Shown here: positions 32,113 through 39,482 of the stretch, piece after piece
Numbering within the stretch: position 1 is the stretch's first letter
How the letters are laid out: every line of letters begins with the position of its first letter
NCBI GenBank assembly: GCA_945903645.1
Contig: CAMDOM010000023.1
Location: 1-44,941, forward strand
Direction of reading: 5' to 3'
Length of the DNA stretch: 44,941 bases
Source: Chryseobacterium gleum
GTDB taxonomy: Bacteria; Bacteroidota; Bacteroidia; UBA10329
Program-made: the position numbers and the translations under genes
Notes under the pieces: generated by a model
Databases searched by the model: none
What the model was told of the DNA's origin: nothing
Seen by the model: only the letters and a program-made list of their open reading frames with translations

Positions 32113-33411
32113 TTGGACACTTTACTGTTACAGCGGCTCATAGTCCGCAACCGCGAATCACTACTTATGGGATCTATATCCCCGCGAGAGCTAGTTCTAC
32201 CTACCGACTTAGGTCTCATAGTGACACTTATAGGAGTGAGGCGCTGTGGTAAGACTAGTCTGTTGCAGCACACCGCTCGCGAGCTTGTTGCCAATGGTGT
32301 TTCTTCTGACCGTATCGTTTATCTAAACTTTGAAGATGAGCGTATCAGTGCAGATTTCAGCGCTTCAGATTTGGTGAATGCCCTATTATTGCTGAATCCC
32401 AATGTGGCTTTGAGTTCATACTATCTGTTTCTCGATGAGGTACAGGCCGTGTCACAATGGGAAAAAATGGTTTACACACTACACGAAACGGAAAGGGCAC
32501 GTCTTTTTATCACAGGTTCCAATTCAGATTTACTTAGTGTAGAGATAGCCACCGCACTTAGAGGACGGTCTCTCTCTTTCGAACTATTTCCATTTTCGTT
32601 CAGTGAGTTTCTCAGTATGCGCAGCCATAAATCAAATTTATTGCGAGAAGAGTCACGTGCCGAAATGCAGAATTTATTTGACGAATATTTGAAATTTGGT
32701 GGATTTCCAGATGTATGTAGTCAGCCTAATAACGCACTACGCACCCGAATATTACAAGAGTATTTCAACGCCATGTTATACCGTGACATGGTAGAACGCT
32801 ATGAAATATCATCACCCGTGACACTCAAGTATTTCTGCAAGCGATTGGTAGAAAATATCGGGAAGCCTACATCGATAAATAAAATCTACAACGAACTGAA
32901 ATCTCAGGGGCGTATGTTGACCAAAAATGTATTGTATGAATGGATAGACCATGCTCAAAATATATATCTGTTTCAGCGGTGTCCTCGGCCCGTGCAGTCA
33001 TTGGTCAAACAATCCACGGGATATGATAAATATTATGGCATAGATGCTGGAATGATGGCGGCCTTAAGCTCAACAATGGGCGAACATTATGGAAGTTTAT
33101 TGGAGAACACTGTGTTTATGCATCTGCGCAGACGACAGCATACAGTGACTTATCACAATGGCAAACGAGAATGTGATTTTTTGCTATTTGAAGATGGAAA
33201 GGTGGTGGCTGCTATCCAAGTCACCAAAACTATACGCGATTCAACTACCAAAGAGTGTGAACTAGCTGGACTTCTTGATGCTTGCAAAGCCTACAATCTC
33301 ACTAAAGGAGTAATTGTAACTGCCTATGATGAAGAAAGATTTAATCATGAGGGCGTTGAAGTGGAGGTCGTACCTGCATTTGAATATTTAGTAAGATCGA
33401 AATATTTATAA
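32113..33411 (+). CDS. AAA family ATPase with C-terminal DUF4143
   Basis: A 432-residue ATPase of the COG1373 type. Walker A is GVRRCGKT (residues 41-48), Walker B is LFLDEVQ (about 104-110), followed by FITGSNSDLLS as sensor 1 and GRSLSFELFPFSFSEFL. The C-terminal DUF4143 region has YYGIDAGMMAALSS, LLENTVFMHLRRR and the nuclease-like KRECDFLLFEDGKVVAAIQVT, which keeps a D and a QxT, a PD-(D/E)XK-like pattern. The start is TTG 32113, chosen because family members carry about 40 residues before Walker A; ATG 32167 is the alternative. It is flanked on both sides by a 49-base repeat. Cellular role unknown for the family. Confidence 0.88.
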   Translation: MDTLLLQRLIVRNRESLLMGSISPRELVLPTDLGLIVTLIGVRRCGKTSLLQHTARELVANGVSSDRIVYLNFEDERISADFSASDLVNALLLLNPNVALSSYYLFLDEVQAVSQWEKMVYTLHETERARLFITGSNSDLLSVEIATALRGRSLSFELFPFSFSEFLSMRSHKSNLLREESRAEMQNLFDEYLKFGGFPDVCSQPNNALRTRILQEYFNAMLYRDMVERYEISSPVTLKYFCKRLVENIGKPTSINKIYNELKSQGRMLTKNVLYEWIDHAQNIYLFQRCPRPVQSLVKQSTGYDKYYGIDAGMMAALSSTMGEHYGSLLENTVFMHLRRRQHTVTYHNGKRECDFLLFEDGKVVAAIQVTKTIRDSTTKECELAGLLDACKAYNLTKGVIVTAYDEERFNHEGVEVEVVPAFEYLVRSKYL

Positions 33412-33554: not shown

Positions 33555-35636
33555 ATGAATCATTTCCAATCTACCATTTGCCAAGGCATTCCTGCCCAAT
33601 TACCTGCTCTACAGCCGCTTGATGCTTCGGTGTCGCACGCCCCAAAACGCAAGGATATTCTTTCTTCTGACGAAAAAAAACTGGCGCTGCGCAATGCCTT
33701 GCGCTATTTTCCAAAGGAGTGGCACGCGGATTTAGCCGTAGATTTTCTGCACGAATTGAAGGAATATGGCCGCATTTATATGCACCGCTTTCGCCCCAGT
33801 TATGCCATGCACGCGCGGCCTATTGATGCCTATCCAGCCCAATGCCAGCAGGCTGCGGCCATCATGCTTATGATTCAGAACAACTTGGATCCCGCTGTGG
33901 CGCAGCATCCGCACGAGCTGATAACCTATGGCGGCAATGGGGCGGTGTTTCAAAATTGGGCGCAATACCTGCTCACCATGCGCTATTTGAGTGAGATGAC
34001 CGAGCAGCAAACCTTGGCCATGTATAGCGGCCACCCGATGGGGCTCTTCCCCTCCCACCCCGATGCACCTCGCGTAGTGGTGACCAACGGCATGATGATT
34101 CCCAACTATTCCAAACCTGACGATTGGGAACGCTTCAACGCCCTTGGCGTGACGCAATACGGCCAAATGACTGCTGGTTCGTACATGTACATTGGCCCAC
34201 AAGGCATAGTGCATGGCACGGCCATTACGGTGCTCAATGCGGTGCGGAAGATAAAAGCGACCTCCCCCGACCCCTCCTTCCCAGGAGGGGAGCTGCCGCA
34301 GCAGGGAACACCCCCCCTGGGAAGGGGGGGTGCCCGAAGGGCGGGGGGATCTGAGTATCTGCCGCTATTTGTGACCAGCGGCCTAGGCGGTATGAGCGGG
34401 GCACAACCCAAGGCGGGCAACATTGCAGGGGTGATTACCATATGTGCCGAAATAAATCCTGCGGCTGCCTACAAGCGCCATGCACAAGGTTGGGTGGATG
34501 AGGTAATCGAAGATGTGGATACTGCTATTGACGCGGCCCAACAGTGGCAATCCAAAAATGTGGCGCACAGCATCGCTTTCTTAGGGAATATCGTTGATTT
34601 GTGGGAACGCCTAGCCCAGCGCAACATTGCCGTAGACCTTGGCAGTGATCAAACAAGCCTGCACAACCCATGGGCGGGAGGATACTATCCTGTTGGATTA
34701 TCCTTGGAGGAAAGCAATGGCATGATGGCCGCGCAACCCGGATTGTTCCAGCAAAAAGTTCACGAATCGCTACGCAGACAGGTTTTGGCCATCAATACAT
34801 TGGCAGAAAATGGCATGTATTTCTTCGATTATGGAAACGCGTTTCTTCTTAAAGCAGGGCGTGCTGGTGCGGATATCGTGAAAGAAGACGGCACATTTAT
34901 TTACCCCAGCTACGTGCAGGATATCATGGGCCCCATGTGTTTCGATTATGGGTTTGGGCCGTTTCGGTGGGTGTGCGCCTCCGGCAAGCCCGAAGACTTG
35001 GCCGCTACCGATGCCATTGCCGCAGATGTGATAGCGGAAATGCTACAATCCGCGCCAGCAGACATTTGCCCACAACTGCAAGACAATCTGCATTGGGTAC
35101 GCAATGCCCATGAAAACCGTCTTGTGGTGGGTACGCAAGCCCGCATTTTGTATGCCGATGCCGAAGGAAGAATGAAAATAGCAGCTGCATTTAACCGCGC
35201 CATTCGCGATGGGAAAATTGGCGCGATAGTTCTAGGTCGGGACCACCACGATGTGTCGGGTACAGATTCGCCCTATCGCGAAACCAGTAATATCTATGAT
35301 GGCTCACAGTTTACAGCCGACATGGCGGTTCAGAATTTCGTGGGCGATGCCTTTCGTGGCGCCACATGGGTAAGCCTTCACAATGGCGGTGGTGTGGGCT
35401 GGGGCGAGGTAATCAATGGTGGCTTTGGAATGCTGTTGGACGGTTCGGAAGATGCCGATAGACGCTTAAAAATGATGCTGCACTGGGATGTGAACAACGG
35501 CATTACACGCAGAAGTTGGGCACGAAACGATGGCGCAGTATCTGCCATAACCCGCGCCATGCAGCAAGAACCACTGCTTAAAGTGACGCTGCCGAATAGG
35601 GTAGACGATTCCGTTTTTGGCGCGTTGCAATTTTGA
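33555..35636 (+). CDS. hutU: Urocanate hydratase (urocanase) with in-frame insertion
   Basis: A 693-residue urocanase, which converts urocanate to imidazolone propionate in histidine breakdown using tightly bound NAD+. Recognisable segments: YGGNGAVFQNW, YSGHPMGLFP, GQMTAGSYMYIGPQGIVHGT, VTSGLGGMSGAQPKA, DQTSLHNPWAGGYYPVG, and a C-terminal GRDHHDVSGTDSPYRETSN. Bacteroidota urocanases are of this longer type (about 660-680 residues). Between RKIKA and LFVTSG it carries about 31 foreign residues rich in Gly, Pro and Arg, encoded by a GC-rich palindrome (34260-34349) that keeps the frame. No other hut gene is in the window. Confidence 0.93.
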   Translation: MNHFQSTICQGIPAQLPALQPLDASVSHAPKRKDILSSDEKKLALRNALRYFPKEWHADLAVDFLHELKEYGRIYMHRFRPSYAMHARPIDAYPAQCQQAAAIMLMIQNNLDPAVAQHPHELITYGGNGAVFQNWAQYLLTMRYLSEMTEQQTLAMYSGHPMGLFPSHPDAPRVVVTNGMMIPNYSKPDDWERFNALGVTQYGQMTAGSYMYIGPQGIVHGTAITVLNAVRKIKATSPDPSFPGGELPQQGTPPLGRGGARRAGGSEYLPLFVTSGLGGMSGAQPKAGNIAGVITICAEINPAAAYKRHAQGWVDEVIEDVDTAIDAAQQWQSKNVAHSIAFLGNIVDLWERLAQRNIAVDLGSDQTSLHNPWAGGYYPVGLSLEESNGMMAAQPGLFQQKVHESLRRQVLAINTLAENGMYFFDYGNAFLLKAGRAGADIVKEDGTFIYPSYVQDIMGPMCFDYGFGPFRWVCASGKPEDLAATDAIAADVIAEMLQSAPADICPQLQDNLHWVRNAHENRLVVGTQARILYADAEGRMKIAAAFNRAIRDGKIGAIVLGRDHHDVSGTDSPYRETSNIYDGSQFTADMAVQNFVGDAFRGATWVSLHNGGGVGWGEVINGGFGMLLDGSEDADRRLKMMLHWDVNNGITRRSWARNDGAVSAITRAMQQEPLLKVTLPNRVDDSVFGALQF
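34260..34349 (+). repeat. GC-rich palindromic element inside hutU
   Basis: A 90-base inverted repeat. The outer arms are TCCCCCGA (34263) against GCGGGGGGA (34341-34349), the inner arms CCTTCCCAGGAGGGG (34276-34290) against CCCCCCCTGGGAAGG (34311-34325). A small GCCCGAAGGGC hairpin sits in the right arm. Its base composition is far from that of the host gene. It is of the kind of G/C-run palindromic repeats that occur in many copies in some Bacteroidota genomes. Confidence 0.8.
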
Positions 35637-35641
35637 ACATT

Positions 35642-36697
35642 ATGGACGAACTCAACCACATTTCGAAGAAAAAACCATTTTTCCCCATCATCGCTCCGCT
35701 GCGCAAATACCTGCGACAAGAAGGGCGAGAAAAGAAATTGGGGTTGAAATATGCCGACCTATTGGAGCATCGCATGGCTGTGCCACTCTTGGATAAAACT
35801 GGCAAAGACACCCTGTGGGAAACGGTGTTCTACTCGCCCGAAAAAACCAAGGAGCTAAACAAATCGCTTTCGTTTATCTATGTTTTGCTGCGCAACGAAG
35901 GTGATTTTAGTTCGTCAAAACACTTGGATGTAGACCGTATAGATTACTGCGCCTTCGGCAATTCCAATCCGTTTCGGGTGCGAATCGTCAATCGGTTCAA
36001 CGACAACTACGACTATTTCTACATCAAAACTGCCGATGCCTCGCGTATCTACGGCCTTGAACTGGAACACTTATTATCGCCCAATCGCATCAGTTATTTC
36101 GTGGACGATACCACCCTTATTGAAGAGCATATCGCAGGTATTCCGGGCGATGTACTCATAGACCGCATGTTAGAAACCACCCAAGTAAATCGCGTGCGGT
36201 TGGCCAAGGAGTTTGTGAAGTTCAACGAGCGTTGCCATGTACGGCTATTGGGAGATATGCGCAGCTACAACTACGTGGTAGCCATAACTCCCGATTTTGA
36301 CGATGTGCAATACCGCATTCGCGCCATCGACTTTGATCAGCAAAGCTACGAAGGTAGAAGAAGGCTATATTTACCTCAGTTTTTCAAGGAAAATTTGCCA
36401 TTGGTAAAAATGGGCATGGAGCTCATCAATGCGGAAACCGTGGAGCAGTATGAAAACGAAGAACGTTCGCTCATTGCGCGAAGATTGGTGCGCAGCAGGT
36501 ATCGAATTAAAGATTTGCTCGATTGCATGGAGCAGGATAGCATCTCATCTCCCGAAAAAATTGCAAGTCTGGCCGCAGACCTCGCTGCATATCATAAGCA
36601 TCCCGACTTTCTGCTTTGCACTAACATGGGCGCGGTGCTCAAACTGCACTTAAAGCTTACGCTTCGCAAGCAAATACGCAAGGTGACCAATTTCTAA
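35642..36697 (+). CDS. Predicted protein-kinase-fold protein of unknown function
   Basis: A 351-residue cytoplasmic protein that I do not recognise as a named family. Its sequence nevertheless carries kinase-fold marks in the right order: Lys129 in YFYIK (the ATP-binding lysine), Glu140/Glu142 in GLELEHLL (helix C), a hinge-like IEEHIAGIPGD, then LLGDMRSYNYVV with Asp205 and Asn210 exactly five residues apart as in HRDxxxxN, and IDFDQ with Asp230 as the DFG/DFD aspartate. It starts at ATG 35642, five bases after the hutU stop; the TTG at 35633 is an unlikely alternative. Co-transcription with hutU is probable. Kinase function is my inference. Confidence 0.78.
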   Translation: MDELNHISKKKPFFPIIAPLRKYLRQEGREKKLGLKYADLLEHRMAVPLLDKTGKDTLWETVFYSPEKTKELNKSLSFIYVLLRNEGDFSSSKHLDVDRIDYCAFGNSNPFRVRIVNRFNDNYDYFYIKTADASRIYGLELEHLLSPNRISYFVDDTTLIEEHIAGIPGDVLIDRMLETTQVNRVRLAKEFVKFNERCHVRLLGDMRSYNYVVAITPDFDDVQYRIRAIDFDQQSYEGRRRLYLPQFFKENLPLVKMGMELINAETVEQYENEERSLIARRLVRSRYRIKDLLDCMEQDSISSPEKIASLAADLAAYHKHPDFLLCTNMGAVLKLHLKLTLRKQIRKVTNF

Positions 36698-36857
36698 TTT
36701 AGGCGCTATAAATTCGGTTTATCGTCAGCGATGCTCAATTGGTCGAATACCTGAACCCTACCGATTCATTTGCGTACACCACGCGCAACGATTGCATTCC
36801 CCCGTGCCAAAACAACACCAACCCAATAGACCATTGCCCTTGAAAGCAAGCGCAGAA

Positions 36858-39482
36858 ATGCGTTCCCTATTGGAGCACTCAGAGCGCAGTGTATTGGTTA
36901 TGAACCTTGACTATCGCATTCTTTGGTTCAATTCGAAAGCGGCTATTTCTATGCAGCGCTATTACGGCAAAGAGCTAAACGCGGGTTCATCCTACTGGGA
37001 ATTTTCTGATAGAGAGAATGACTTGCGGTTTGTCCGAAATTTTGAATCAGCACTCAAAGGCCGAACCGTGAACACAGAGCGAAGGCTAAAATCGGATGGA
37101 GAACATGAGTTGTGGATTGATGGCACATTTTCACCGCTTTTTTACGCTGACGAAATTATTACAGGAGTCATTTATTCCTACCAGAATATCTCAAAACGGA
37201 AGCTCGAAGAGAAAGAAGCAAGTCATCGCGAAAGCATAATTCAAGCTATAAACACCAACGAATCTCAAGCATTTGTGCTCATCGATGACAAAAACAAAGT
37301 GCTTAGTTGCAATCCCATTGCTTCAAAAATGATTGGGACAGGAGACTTTGCACTTGACGCTGCGGACAATTCGATTCTCGATTGCATAGCACCCCAATGG
37401 AAAGACCGCTTTGTTGGAGGATTAAAACTAGCACGTTCTGGAGGAACTATTTCAATCGAGTTTGAACATACCAAACCAAAACACCGCACGGTAGAAATCA
37501 GATTCTGCCCTGTCAATGCGCAAAACGAAGCAAGTCTAGTTTCCATTTGGGCATTCGATATAACCGACAAAAAGAAGGGAGAACAAGAAGTGCGCATTTC
37601 GGAAGAAAATCTGCGCTCGGTATTCAACAGCAGTTCTCAAACATTCTATCTGCTCGACCACGAACTAAATATATTGGCCTTTAACGAGCCTGCAAAGGCT
37701 CTGGTGAAAGAGCAATATGGGCGAAATTTGAGCATTGGCGTCAATGTGGCGGAGATAACACCTGAGGAAAGAATGACTCAGTTTTTGGCAGAAACGCAAC
37801 GTGCATTTGCTGGTAAACGCGTTCAGGTAGAAAAGCATTTTTCCAACAATGGAAAGGAATATTGGTTCGAGCGCCATATCAATCCCATTCGAAATCAGTT
37901 TGGGGTGGTGGATCGGGTTGCGATGTGGTCTATAAATATCACCGATCGAAAAAAGGCCGAAGAAGCGTTGCGCGAGAGCGAGTCTAAATTCAGAAAGCTG
38001 GCATCGCTAATGCCGGTTGGTGTTTATCAAACGAATATTGAAAGCAATACTACTTATGTGAACAATAGTTTGAAAGCTATTTTGGGCACATCTACTAGCG
38101 AACTTTTGTCTGGAGCATGGAAAAAACTAATTCATTCCGATGATAGTGATGCGGTATTTAAATGCTGGAAAAAATCAGAAAATGACAAACTACCTTATGA
38201 AATACAGTACAGAATTACCTCGGCAAGTGGCACTATAACGCATGTGTTGGAACAGGCTCTGCCGCTCTACAATAATTTGAAAGAATACCATGGGTTTCTA
38301 GGCACTGTGATTGACCTAACTGCCCAACGCGCTACGCAGAAACTGCAACAAGACAAGGACATAGCCGAACGGTCACTGCGGTTTCGTTCGGAGTTCTTGG
38401 CAAGCATGAGCCACGAAATCCGCACTCCGCTTACAGGCATAATTGGTATGACGGAATTATTGATGAGTTCTAATTTAAGCAAAAGTCAGCGCAAACGTGT
38501 GGAGAACATCTTTACCGCATCGGCAGATTTGCGTTCAATTGTGAACGATGTGCTTAACCTATCGGAATTGGAATCGGGCAAAATTGCCATCCATGAAGAG
38601 TCGTTTAGCGTGAATCAACTGCTGCATCAGGTAAAAGATAGATTTTGGCCAGAAGCCAATAATAAAGGCATTGGTTTACACCTACAACATTTGGACTCCG
38701 ACACTATCGTATGCTCAGACAGACGAAGAATAACTCAGATTTTATCAAACCTAACGCGCAATGCTATAAAATTTACGTTGAAAGGAGAGGTTACGGTTGC
38801 GGCTTCAGTTGCCAATGCTAAAGTTCGCTTTGAAGTCCACGATACGGGAATAGGCATACCACAAAGTGAGTTGCCTAAATTATTCAAGGCCTTTTCGCAG
38901 TTGGAACACACCACTGCACAAAACCTTGAAGGAACGGGGTTGGGATTGTCCATTTGCCAAAAGCTTGCAACAATGATGGGAGGCACAATTGACGTAACCA
39001 GCGAGTACGGTTTAGGAAGTGTATTTTGGTTTGAAATACCACTTAGTCACAAGGAACTAGCTATAGATGAACCAAAAAACCGCAAGGCAACAGCTTCGAC
39101 AGGAGTTATGAATAAAGAGATTTTGCTTGTGGAGGATAATCTGATTAACCAACAAGCTTTTCGGGCTATGCTGCACAAAATAGGCTGCAACGTTACCCTA
39201 GCATCCAATGGTGAAGAAGCAATTGCAGCATTTAACCGAGCGAGCTACGACCTCATTTTTATGGATATTCAAATGCCCGTGATGGACGGCATTGCTGCTA
39301 CAGATCAGATTCGGGCCAAAGGCGGTGTTGTGCCTCCAATAATTGGTTTAAGTGGCAACGCTCTAAAACGAGATGCAGAAGGCCATCTCAATATTGCGAT
39401 GGACGATTTTTTGGTAAAACCCGTGGTGTCTAAGGAACTGGAACGGATGATTCAGAAGTGGACATCCACTTCATCCCAATAA
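36858..39482 (+). CDS. Hybrid sensor histidine kinase with PAS domains
   Basis: An 874-residue soluble hybrid kinase. It has four PAS/PAC units in its first about 490 residues (starts near MRSLLEHSERSVLVM, ESQAFVLIDDK, NLRSVFNSSSQTFYLLD and ESKFRKLASLMPVG). A HisKA domain follows with His519 in SMSHEIRTPLTG, then the ATPase domain (NLTRNAIKF, DTGIGIPQSELPKLF, GTGLGLSI) and a receiver with Asp803 in LIFMDIQMPVMDG and Lys in FLVKP. No membrane segment is visible, so the signal is probably internal. I chose ATG 36858; a TTG start at 36792 would add 22 residues. No output regulator is adjacent. Confidence 0.9.
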   Translation: MRSLLEHSERSVLVMNLDYRILWFNSKAAISMQRYYGKELNAGSSYWEFSDRENDLRFVRNFESALKGRTVNTERRLKSDGEHELWIDGTFSPLFYADEIITGVIYSYQNISKRKLEEKEASHRESIIQAINTNESQAFVLIDDKNKVLSCNPIASKMIGTGDFALDAADNSILDCIAPQWKDRFVGGLKLARSGGTISIEFEHTKPKHRTVEIRFCPVNAQNEASLVSIWAFDITDKKKGEQEVRISEENLRSVFNSSSQTFYLLDHELNILAFNEPAKALVKEQYGRNLSIGVNVAEITPEERMTQFLAETQRAFAGKRVQVEKHFSNNGKEYWFERHINPIRNQFGVVDRVAMWSINITDRKKAEEALRESESKFRKLASLMPVGVYQTNIESNTTYVNNSLKAILGTSTSELLSGAWKKLIHSDDSDAVFKCWKKSENDKLPYEIQYRITSASGTITHVLEQALPLYNNLKEYHGFLGTVIDLTAQRATQKLQQDKDIAERSLRFRSEFLASMSHEIRTPLTGIIGMTELLMSSNLSKSQRKRVENIFTASADLRSIVNDVLNLSELESGKIAIHEESFSVNQLLHQVKDRFWPEANNKGIGLHLQHLDSDTIVCSDRRRITQILSNLTRNAIKFTLKGEVTVAASVANAKVRFEVHDTGIGIPQSELPKLFKAFSQLEHTTAQNLEGTGLGLSICQKLATMMGGTIDVTSEYGLGSVFWFEIPLSHKELAIDEPKNRKATASTGVMNKEILLVEDNLINQQAFRAMLHKIGCNVTLASNGEEAIAAFNRASYDLIFMDIQMPVMDGIAATDQIRAKGGVVPPIIGLSGNALKRDAEGHLNIAMDDFLVKPVVSKELERMIQKWTSTSSQ

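Follow-up and report, generated by a model that had tools for sequence, protein, structure and literature searches.

The described systems that come closest to the gene reported here are the PI3K/PI4K enzymes (VPS34/PIK3C3, PI4K beta, and p110; PF00454) and the PIKKs (mTOR, ATM/Tel1, and SMG1). Among other enzymes of kinase fold, HipA carries a DRHxxN-like loop and SelO transfers AMP. In small-molecule kinases, according to PMC4702295, extra residues usually (not universally) separate helix E from the catalytic loop, and as a rule that loop contains no Arg or Lys, whereas PI3K-type enzymes keep an Arg or His there. The LanM dehydratase acts by phosphorylation and then elimination. The LanM enzyme CylM has the fold of a lipid kinase without sequence similarity to kinases (PMC4550811). 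Here we describe an orphan gene from the 44,941-nucleotide stretch of Chryseobacterium gleum DNA that was analyzed as a whole (the window); the original prediction, made from the letters of that stretch, had read its product as a divergent kinase coupled to the urocanase gene hutU.

An orphan gene with a putative kinase active site

Rereading the sequence confirmed the coordinates, the frame, and the residues K129, E140/E142, D205, N210, and D230 of the original prediction, as well as its statement that the gene starts five bases past urocanase, the hutU stop and the ATG being 5 bp apart. If the gene instead began at the in-frame TTG at 35633, it would overlap hutU. The features of the locus are as follows.

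35642..36697, + strand: orphan kinase gene (family K), 351 aa, with ATG at 35642 and stop at 36695-36697; assigned from family alignments and models
33555..35636, + strand: hutU (urocanase), 5 bp upstream, identified by Pfam and NCBIfam; a neighbor judged to lie outside the kinase's system, adjacent only in the genus and one relative
35954..35971, + strand: FGNSNP, residues 105-110, between the first two N-lobe strands; N107 and P110 in 187/187 alignment rows
36026..36046, + strand: K129-x-x-D132-x-x-R135, third N-lobe strand, with the putative ATP-binding Lys; each residue in 187/187
36059..36067, + strand: E140 and E142, in the helix after the K129 strand (helix 133-145 in the model); E142 in 186/187
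36251..36271, + strand: putative catalytic loop, G204-D205-M-[R/H]207-x-x-N210; D205 and N210 in 187/187, position 207 Arg in 154 and His in 33
36329..36337, + strand: putative metal-binding D230-F231-D232, counterpart of DFG; each residue in 187/187

K129 stands inside YFYIK, with E140 and E142 next, GDMRSYN runs from G204 to N210, and D230 belongs to I229-D230-F231-D232-Q233; five residues separate D205 from N210 and 20 separate N210 from D230. The K129-D132-R135 core is common to PI3K-group kinases. In the model, E140/E142 are candidate salt-bridge partners for K129, and FGNSNP is a possible counterpart of the phosphate loop, judging by its place in the predicted secondary structure.

Residues in the order and spacing of a kinase fold, the basis of the original prediction, are indeed present, but the spacing by itself is not above chance. 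Among 597 control ORFs (non-redundant, unrelated, at least 250 aa long, and taken from the neighborhoods of kinase genes), a loose K..E..D(x4)N..D pattern matched 237, so spacing alone is weak evidence and was rejected as proof of a kinase; a tighter GD(x4)N..DF pattern matched 3 of the 597. Conservation was read from a 187-row family alignment drawn from the 220 loci with the gene, of which 34 were dropped as short or duplicate and with the window protein entered twice; aligned members share at least 47% identity with the window protein. K129, D132, R135, D205, N210, D230, F231, and D232 are invariant in this alignment, while position 142 is Glu in 186 rows and Asp in 1, and position 140 is Glu in 184 and Asp in 3. 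The kinase reading rises above chance because of this conservation, together with a predicted fold in which the strand, the helix, and the loops carry the residues expected of them, and the assignment of the orphan protein as a kinase is solid.

Predicted fold and sequence comparisons

An AlphaFold2 model of the window protein (69 aligned sequences) had a pLDDT of 87.6 and a pTM of 0.87, and a second AlphaFold model, of the Pedobacter cryophilus member, had values of 86.5 and 0.86; the two are not fully independent, since their alignments have most rows in common. Structure prediction had been suggested along with the original prediction, and both models show a two-lobe kinase fold. With that fold in two members and K129, D205, N210, and D230 conserved in every row, the description of the protein as a divergent kinase is borne out, and neither line of evidence contradicts it. 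The order of elements is strand, strand, strand (K129), helix (E142), strand, strand, hinge, a helix that stops three residues short of the catalytic Asp, a beta hairpin to DFD, and helices, with strands at 95-103 and 111-117 and a helix at 133-145 in the window-protein model. The marks of the protein-kinase-like superfamily at the level of the fold, namely a strand-3 Lys, a helix-C acid, an Asp with an Asn five residues on, and a metal-binding Asp, are all found in the predicted models. An insert before the catalytic loop is absent: helix 184-201 is followed by D205 in the window model and helix 189-206 by D210 in the second.

Foldseek against the PDB placed Drosophila VPS34 first for both models (E-values of 1.8e-4 and 2.1e-5), with low TM-scores to VPS34 of 0.35-0.40 and a high rmsd; ordinary Ser/Thr kinases came next at nearly equal E-values, so Foldseek by itself cannot separate the kinase groups. 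In VIA-align, which re-ranks Foldseek's first 1000 chains only, the best 50 entries listed for each model were all PI3K, PI4K, or PIKK kinases. VPS34 was the best match in both cases, as 7rsj for the window model (Z 13.1, rmsd 4.5 over 269 residues, 8% identity) and as 2x6j for the second (Z 13.2, rmsd 4.3 over 268); Tel1 (12.8), mTOR (12.4), ATM (12.3), and PI4K beta tie with VPS34 within about 1 Z, and the alignments cover model residues 17 or 21 through 350, the C-terminal end. APH (aminoglycoside phosphotransferase) or HipA entries numbered 0 among the best 50 rows listed per Foldseek or VIA-align run for both models, which does not exclude them, as such structures were perhaps absent from a comparison in which only Foldseek's first 1000 chains were realigned. 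In a viral structure library the matches listed were mostly protein kinases, a giant-virus PI3K being second. Within the first 1000 Foldseek chains, it is the PI3K/PI4K/PIKK fold group that both predicted models match best across most of their length. The original prediction had likened the pattern to the kinase/aminoglycoside phosphotransferase fold; the nearest fold found is PI3K/PI4K/PIKK and not the aminoglycoside phosphotransferase type, by VIA-align with both models and by the joint core described below.

The orphan protein had no credible match in Pfam, NCBIfam, PHROGs, PADLOC, or PDB sequences, and single weak matches (a cytochrome b558/566 subunit, a sigma-54 factor, a ribbon-helix-helix protein, and others) were judged to be chance. 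Searches of the family against PDB sequences with phmmer and hmmsearch found nothing, and a Pfam scan left 44/44 family members without a match, including to PF00454, APH (PF01636), and HipA_C. The profile search first proposed, against PKinase, APH, HipA, and CotH, separated no group from decoys: with hhalign, none of the PI3K, HipA, APH, Pkinase, and CotH profiles rose above ten decoys, and the PI3K profile, built from four sequences only, had a probability of 0.08%. In 148 genomes of the phylum, no PF00454 match exceeded the cut-off and none lay in genome G000; 6 weak partial matches fell below it. PROSITE-style PI3/4-kinase signatures 1 and 2 matched 4/4 typed human domains and 0/187 family rows.

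What the family and the PI3K group do have in common is a joint core, consisting of a hydrophobic residue followed by K..D..R, a later D.[RH]..N, and a later [ILV]DF. This core is found in 186/187 family rows and in three of the four typed human PI3K-group domains (VPS34, p110 alpha, and PI4K beta; mTOR fails, with Glu at K+3), in none of 63 proteins from relatives (0/19 HipA, 0/16 APH, 0/7 Pkinase, and 0/21 CotH), and in 0/597 unrelated ORFs. Because the pattern was composed after both groups had been seen, it is supporting and not independent evidence. Searches of the open-licence PMC literature listed no paper on the family. The orphan kinase is a family named by none of the four libraries searched (Pfam, NCBIfam, PHROG, and PADLOC), with a known fold group and an unexpected nearest relative; going by the models, its PI3K-likeness is likely.

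Set beside PI3K/PI4K enzymes, the family has its best structural matches there and shares the K..D..R, D.[RH]..N, and IDF core, but it lacks a Pfam or profile match and both signatures, has IDFD for IDFG and GDM[RH] for GDRH, leaves no space in 351 aa for C2, helical, or adaptor domains, and has no link to inositol synthesis. PIKKs resemble it in their Z-scores, in the DxH/R loop, and in the predicted C-terminal helices after the active site, but by its length the orphan kinase is without FAT or HEAT regions, and mTOR fails the strict K..D..R test. HipA shares the kinase fold and has its DRHxxN-like loop, but the local HipA proteins are without the joint core, and no conserved antitoxin-like neighbor was noticed near the orphan kinase. 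We describe the family as resembling PI3K/PIKK-type kinases in fold and working, but do not count it among the members of PF00454, because the signatures fail in all 187 rows and LanM sets a precedent for fold without sequence likeness.

Distribution, inheritance, and neighborhood

At least 588 related loci exist, and the best 80 listed in the collection scan are all titled as Bacteroidota or groups within it. The kinase is single-copy in the window genome, has relatives in 69 of 197 related genomes, and occurs in 99 of 395 genomes of the phylum, that is, in about a quarter of Bacteroidota. Matches are near all-or-none, nearly all with E < 1e-70, with one weak second match in genome G047; a single open frame among the 220 loci exceeds 420 aa, at 427 aa. 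G270 is the only genome of the 395 with two full copies, and the second (L218, G270:C3:105230-106207) is fast-evolving (branch 2.67) and adjoins a ClpP gene. At G420:C1:3158142-3158407 the gene is broken into two fragments that contain stop codons and appears to be a pseudogene. A quick tree of 87 rows sorts most members by family and unites its 14 non-Bacteroidia sequences in one clade, which suggests that the kinase was inherited mainly vertically in Bacteroidota; rows on long branches, weak support at many forks, and a tree search that stopped short of completion limit this reading. No plasmid relatives were found, and of 10 pattern matches in viral contigs 0 were confirmed.

Neighbors of the kinase change with lineage, and a toxin-antitoxin or fixed-operon arrangement was rejected. 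Clustering covered ORFs of at least 60 aa at 155 of 161 loci (6 were dropped where the ORF caller had missed the kinase gene), and within that sample no recurrent hipB-type or antitoxin-like partner gene was noticed. Clusters resembling fructose-bisphosphate aldolase, cystathionine synthase, and a substrate-binding protein, mostly in Chitinophagaceae, and a two-component pair in Pontibacter were named by eye; neighbors named by Pfam elsewhere are an O-methyltransferase, ClpP, flavodoxin, SIMPL, arginase, transketolase, DprA, FtsW-type, and MFS proteins. At two loci of one family (L048 and L054, f14), the kinase gene has a flavodoxin-type gene close on one side and a 136-aa gene close on the other, with gaps of -17 to 6 bp.

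Alternative explanations

It is unlikely, though worth weighing, that the protein is a small-molecule kinase of the APH/choline-kinase type, acting on an antibiotic, sugar, amine, or nucleoside, whose size and helices mislead AlphaFold and the fold search toward PI3K. The general kinase fold and the GDxxxxN ... IDF order are shared with this group, the hinge 'LIEEHIxGIPGD' and 'GDM[RH]xxN ... IDFD' resemble APH motifs, and the best APH stretch in hhalign, while not significant, was the catalytic loop. Against this, the model has no insert from helix to catalytic loop and Arg or His stands at D+2 in 187/187 rows, both of which differ from small-molecule kinases as PMC4702295 generally describes them; moreover, the Pfam APH profile matches 0/44 members, and the joint core is missing from all 16 local APH proteins.

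A lipid kinase acting on inositol or another polyol lipid, as a bacterial counterpart of VPS34/PI4K, is distinctly improbable. The closest structures include lipid kinases, and some Bacteroidetes make inositol lipids, as PMC9246714 reports, but the PIKK protein kinases score equally within about 1 Z. Inositol-phosphate synthase (PF01658), present in 62/395 genomes of which 16 have the kinase, showed no association with it (odds ratio 1.05, p 0.87) and was not found in the window genome, and the link to inositol was rejected.

Just as improbable is a kinase tied to the metabolism of bacillithiol, a low-molecular-weight thiol, and expressed with BshA. The bshA gene immediately precedes the kinase gene, on the same strand, in 12 of 15 non-Bacteroidia kinase loci with 7-kb flanks, spread over 7 families, with three of the neighbor proteins at 553-577 bits against a cut-off of 273.7; no other gene stays next to the kinase in several families. 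Each of the 99 kinase genomes has bshA, and the 16 without bshA all lack the kinase (Fisher p 0.015, uncorrected for kinship). This co-occurrence says little, however, because bshA is near-universal (379/395 genomes), and 280 genomes carry it without the kinase; furthermore, the same search found bshA in 0 of the fetched Bacteroidia kinase loci, the gene block around it is broadly syntenic, and no step in the known bacillithiol pathway is known to require a kinase. That block is partly shared among non-Bacteroidia loci L189, L191, L194-L196, L199, and L206 and includes genes for an LptF/G-like permease, a tetrapyrrole-methylase-family protein, a metallo-beta-lactamase-fold protein, a cell wall hydrolase, and a 2-hydroxyacid dehydrogenase; L191 and L206 also have a ribosome-hibernation-factor-like cluster there.

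We give little credence to a kinase-fold enzyme of other chemistry, whether LanM-like phosphorylation-elimination or SelO-like AMP transfer, or to a pseudokinase. By the description in PMC4550811, CylM is a bacterial protein that is folded like a lipid kinase although its sequence resembles no kinase, and its active site is of the form Lys/DxHxxN/Asp (DxHxxN/D), features that recall the orphan family. LanM is, however, large, two-domain, and peptide-modifying, whereas the orphan kinase is a lone 351-aa domain without fusion to a LanC-type cyclase, and no small-peptide gene was seen to recur beside it (155 loci, ORFs of at least 60 aa); against a pseudokinase, all catalytic residues are intact across the 187 rows.

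It is scarcely credible that the protein regulates histidine catabolism, or serves it as an enzyme, in coupling with hutU: the same strand and the gap of 5 bp (6 bp in the closest relative, G007) speak for it, but among the 220 fetched loci hutU lies nearby, with at most 2 genes between, only in 7/9 genus genomes and in G053, a genome from another family, a 187-aa gene unrelated to either usually intervenes, and in G005 the kinase is kept with no hutU within 5 kb. The contig of G006 ends too soon to judge. The 187-aa gene, which has no Pfam match, directly precedes the kinase in seven genus genomes and is missing in the window and G007, hence the short gaps in these two. Therefore, the coupling to hutU that was originally claimed is local; the kinase's place beside it is a local accident, and the two may share a transcript and no more. 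Pfam and NCBIfam identify HutU itself, at 693 aa, as a genuine urocanase (387 bits, the cut-off being 375). The Pfam matches do not cover its residues 212-269, a region that separates the N-terminal domain from the Rossmann domain and has a Gly/Pro/Arg-rich stretch; the length of this region varies, since the relatives in G004 and G008 align over 744-752 columns. Upstream of hutU, 32113-33411 (+) encodes an AAA_14/DUF4143 ATPase that matched nothing in the other genus loci searched; downstream of the kinase gene, 36792-39482 (+) encodes a hybrid histidine kinase that combines PAS repeats with a receiver domain and whose only relative among the genus loci searched is in G007 (58% identity).

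Discussion

Our preferred reading, which is reasonably probable, is that the product is a phosphotransferase of the protein-kinase-like superfamily that stands alone and is catalytically intact, with a fold and motif core closest to PI3K/PI4K/PIKK and a cellular role of its own. By established kinase chemistry, ATP would bind between the lobes, with K129 (together with E142) on its phosphates, N210 and D230 would bind Mg2+, and D205 would position the acceptor hydroxyl; R/H207 may aid proton transfer or charge, as a counterpart of the basic residue in the PIKK 'DxH'. The acceptor is probably a protein, which we favor, with less certainty, over an inositol lipid or a drug-like small molecule because Arg or His always stands at D+2, no insert precedes the loop, and inositol synthesis was neither found nor seen to co-occur. 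More tentatively, the family could be a single-domain PI3K/PIKK-type protein kinase, native to Bacteroidota, mostly vertical and inositol-independent, that is sister to the VPS34/mTOR/ATM group and phosphorylates a conserved bacterial protein; this fuller version is possible but doubtful as a whole.

The strong constraint on the family, expressed in the identity of aligned members to the window protein, points to a specific substrate. The related loci represent an enzyme with an unbroken predicted kinase active site that four family libraries do not recognize. The PI3K/PIKK group is central to eukaryotic growth and DNA-damage control, and here its likeness appears in a single-domain, single-copy gene; if that likeness reflects real descent, the family would offer a bacterial reference point for the origin of this kinase group.
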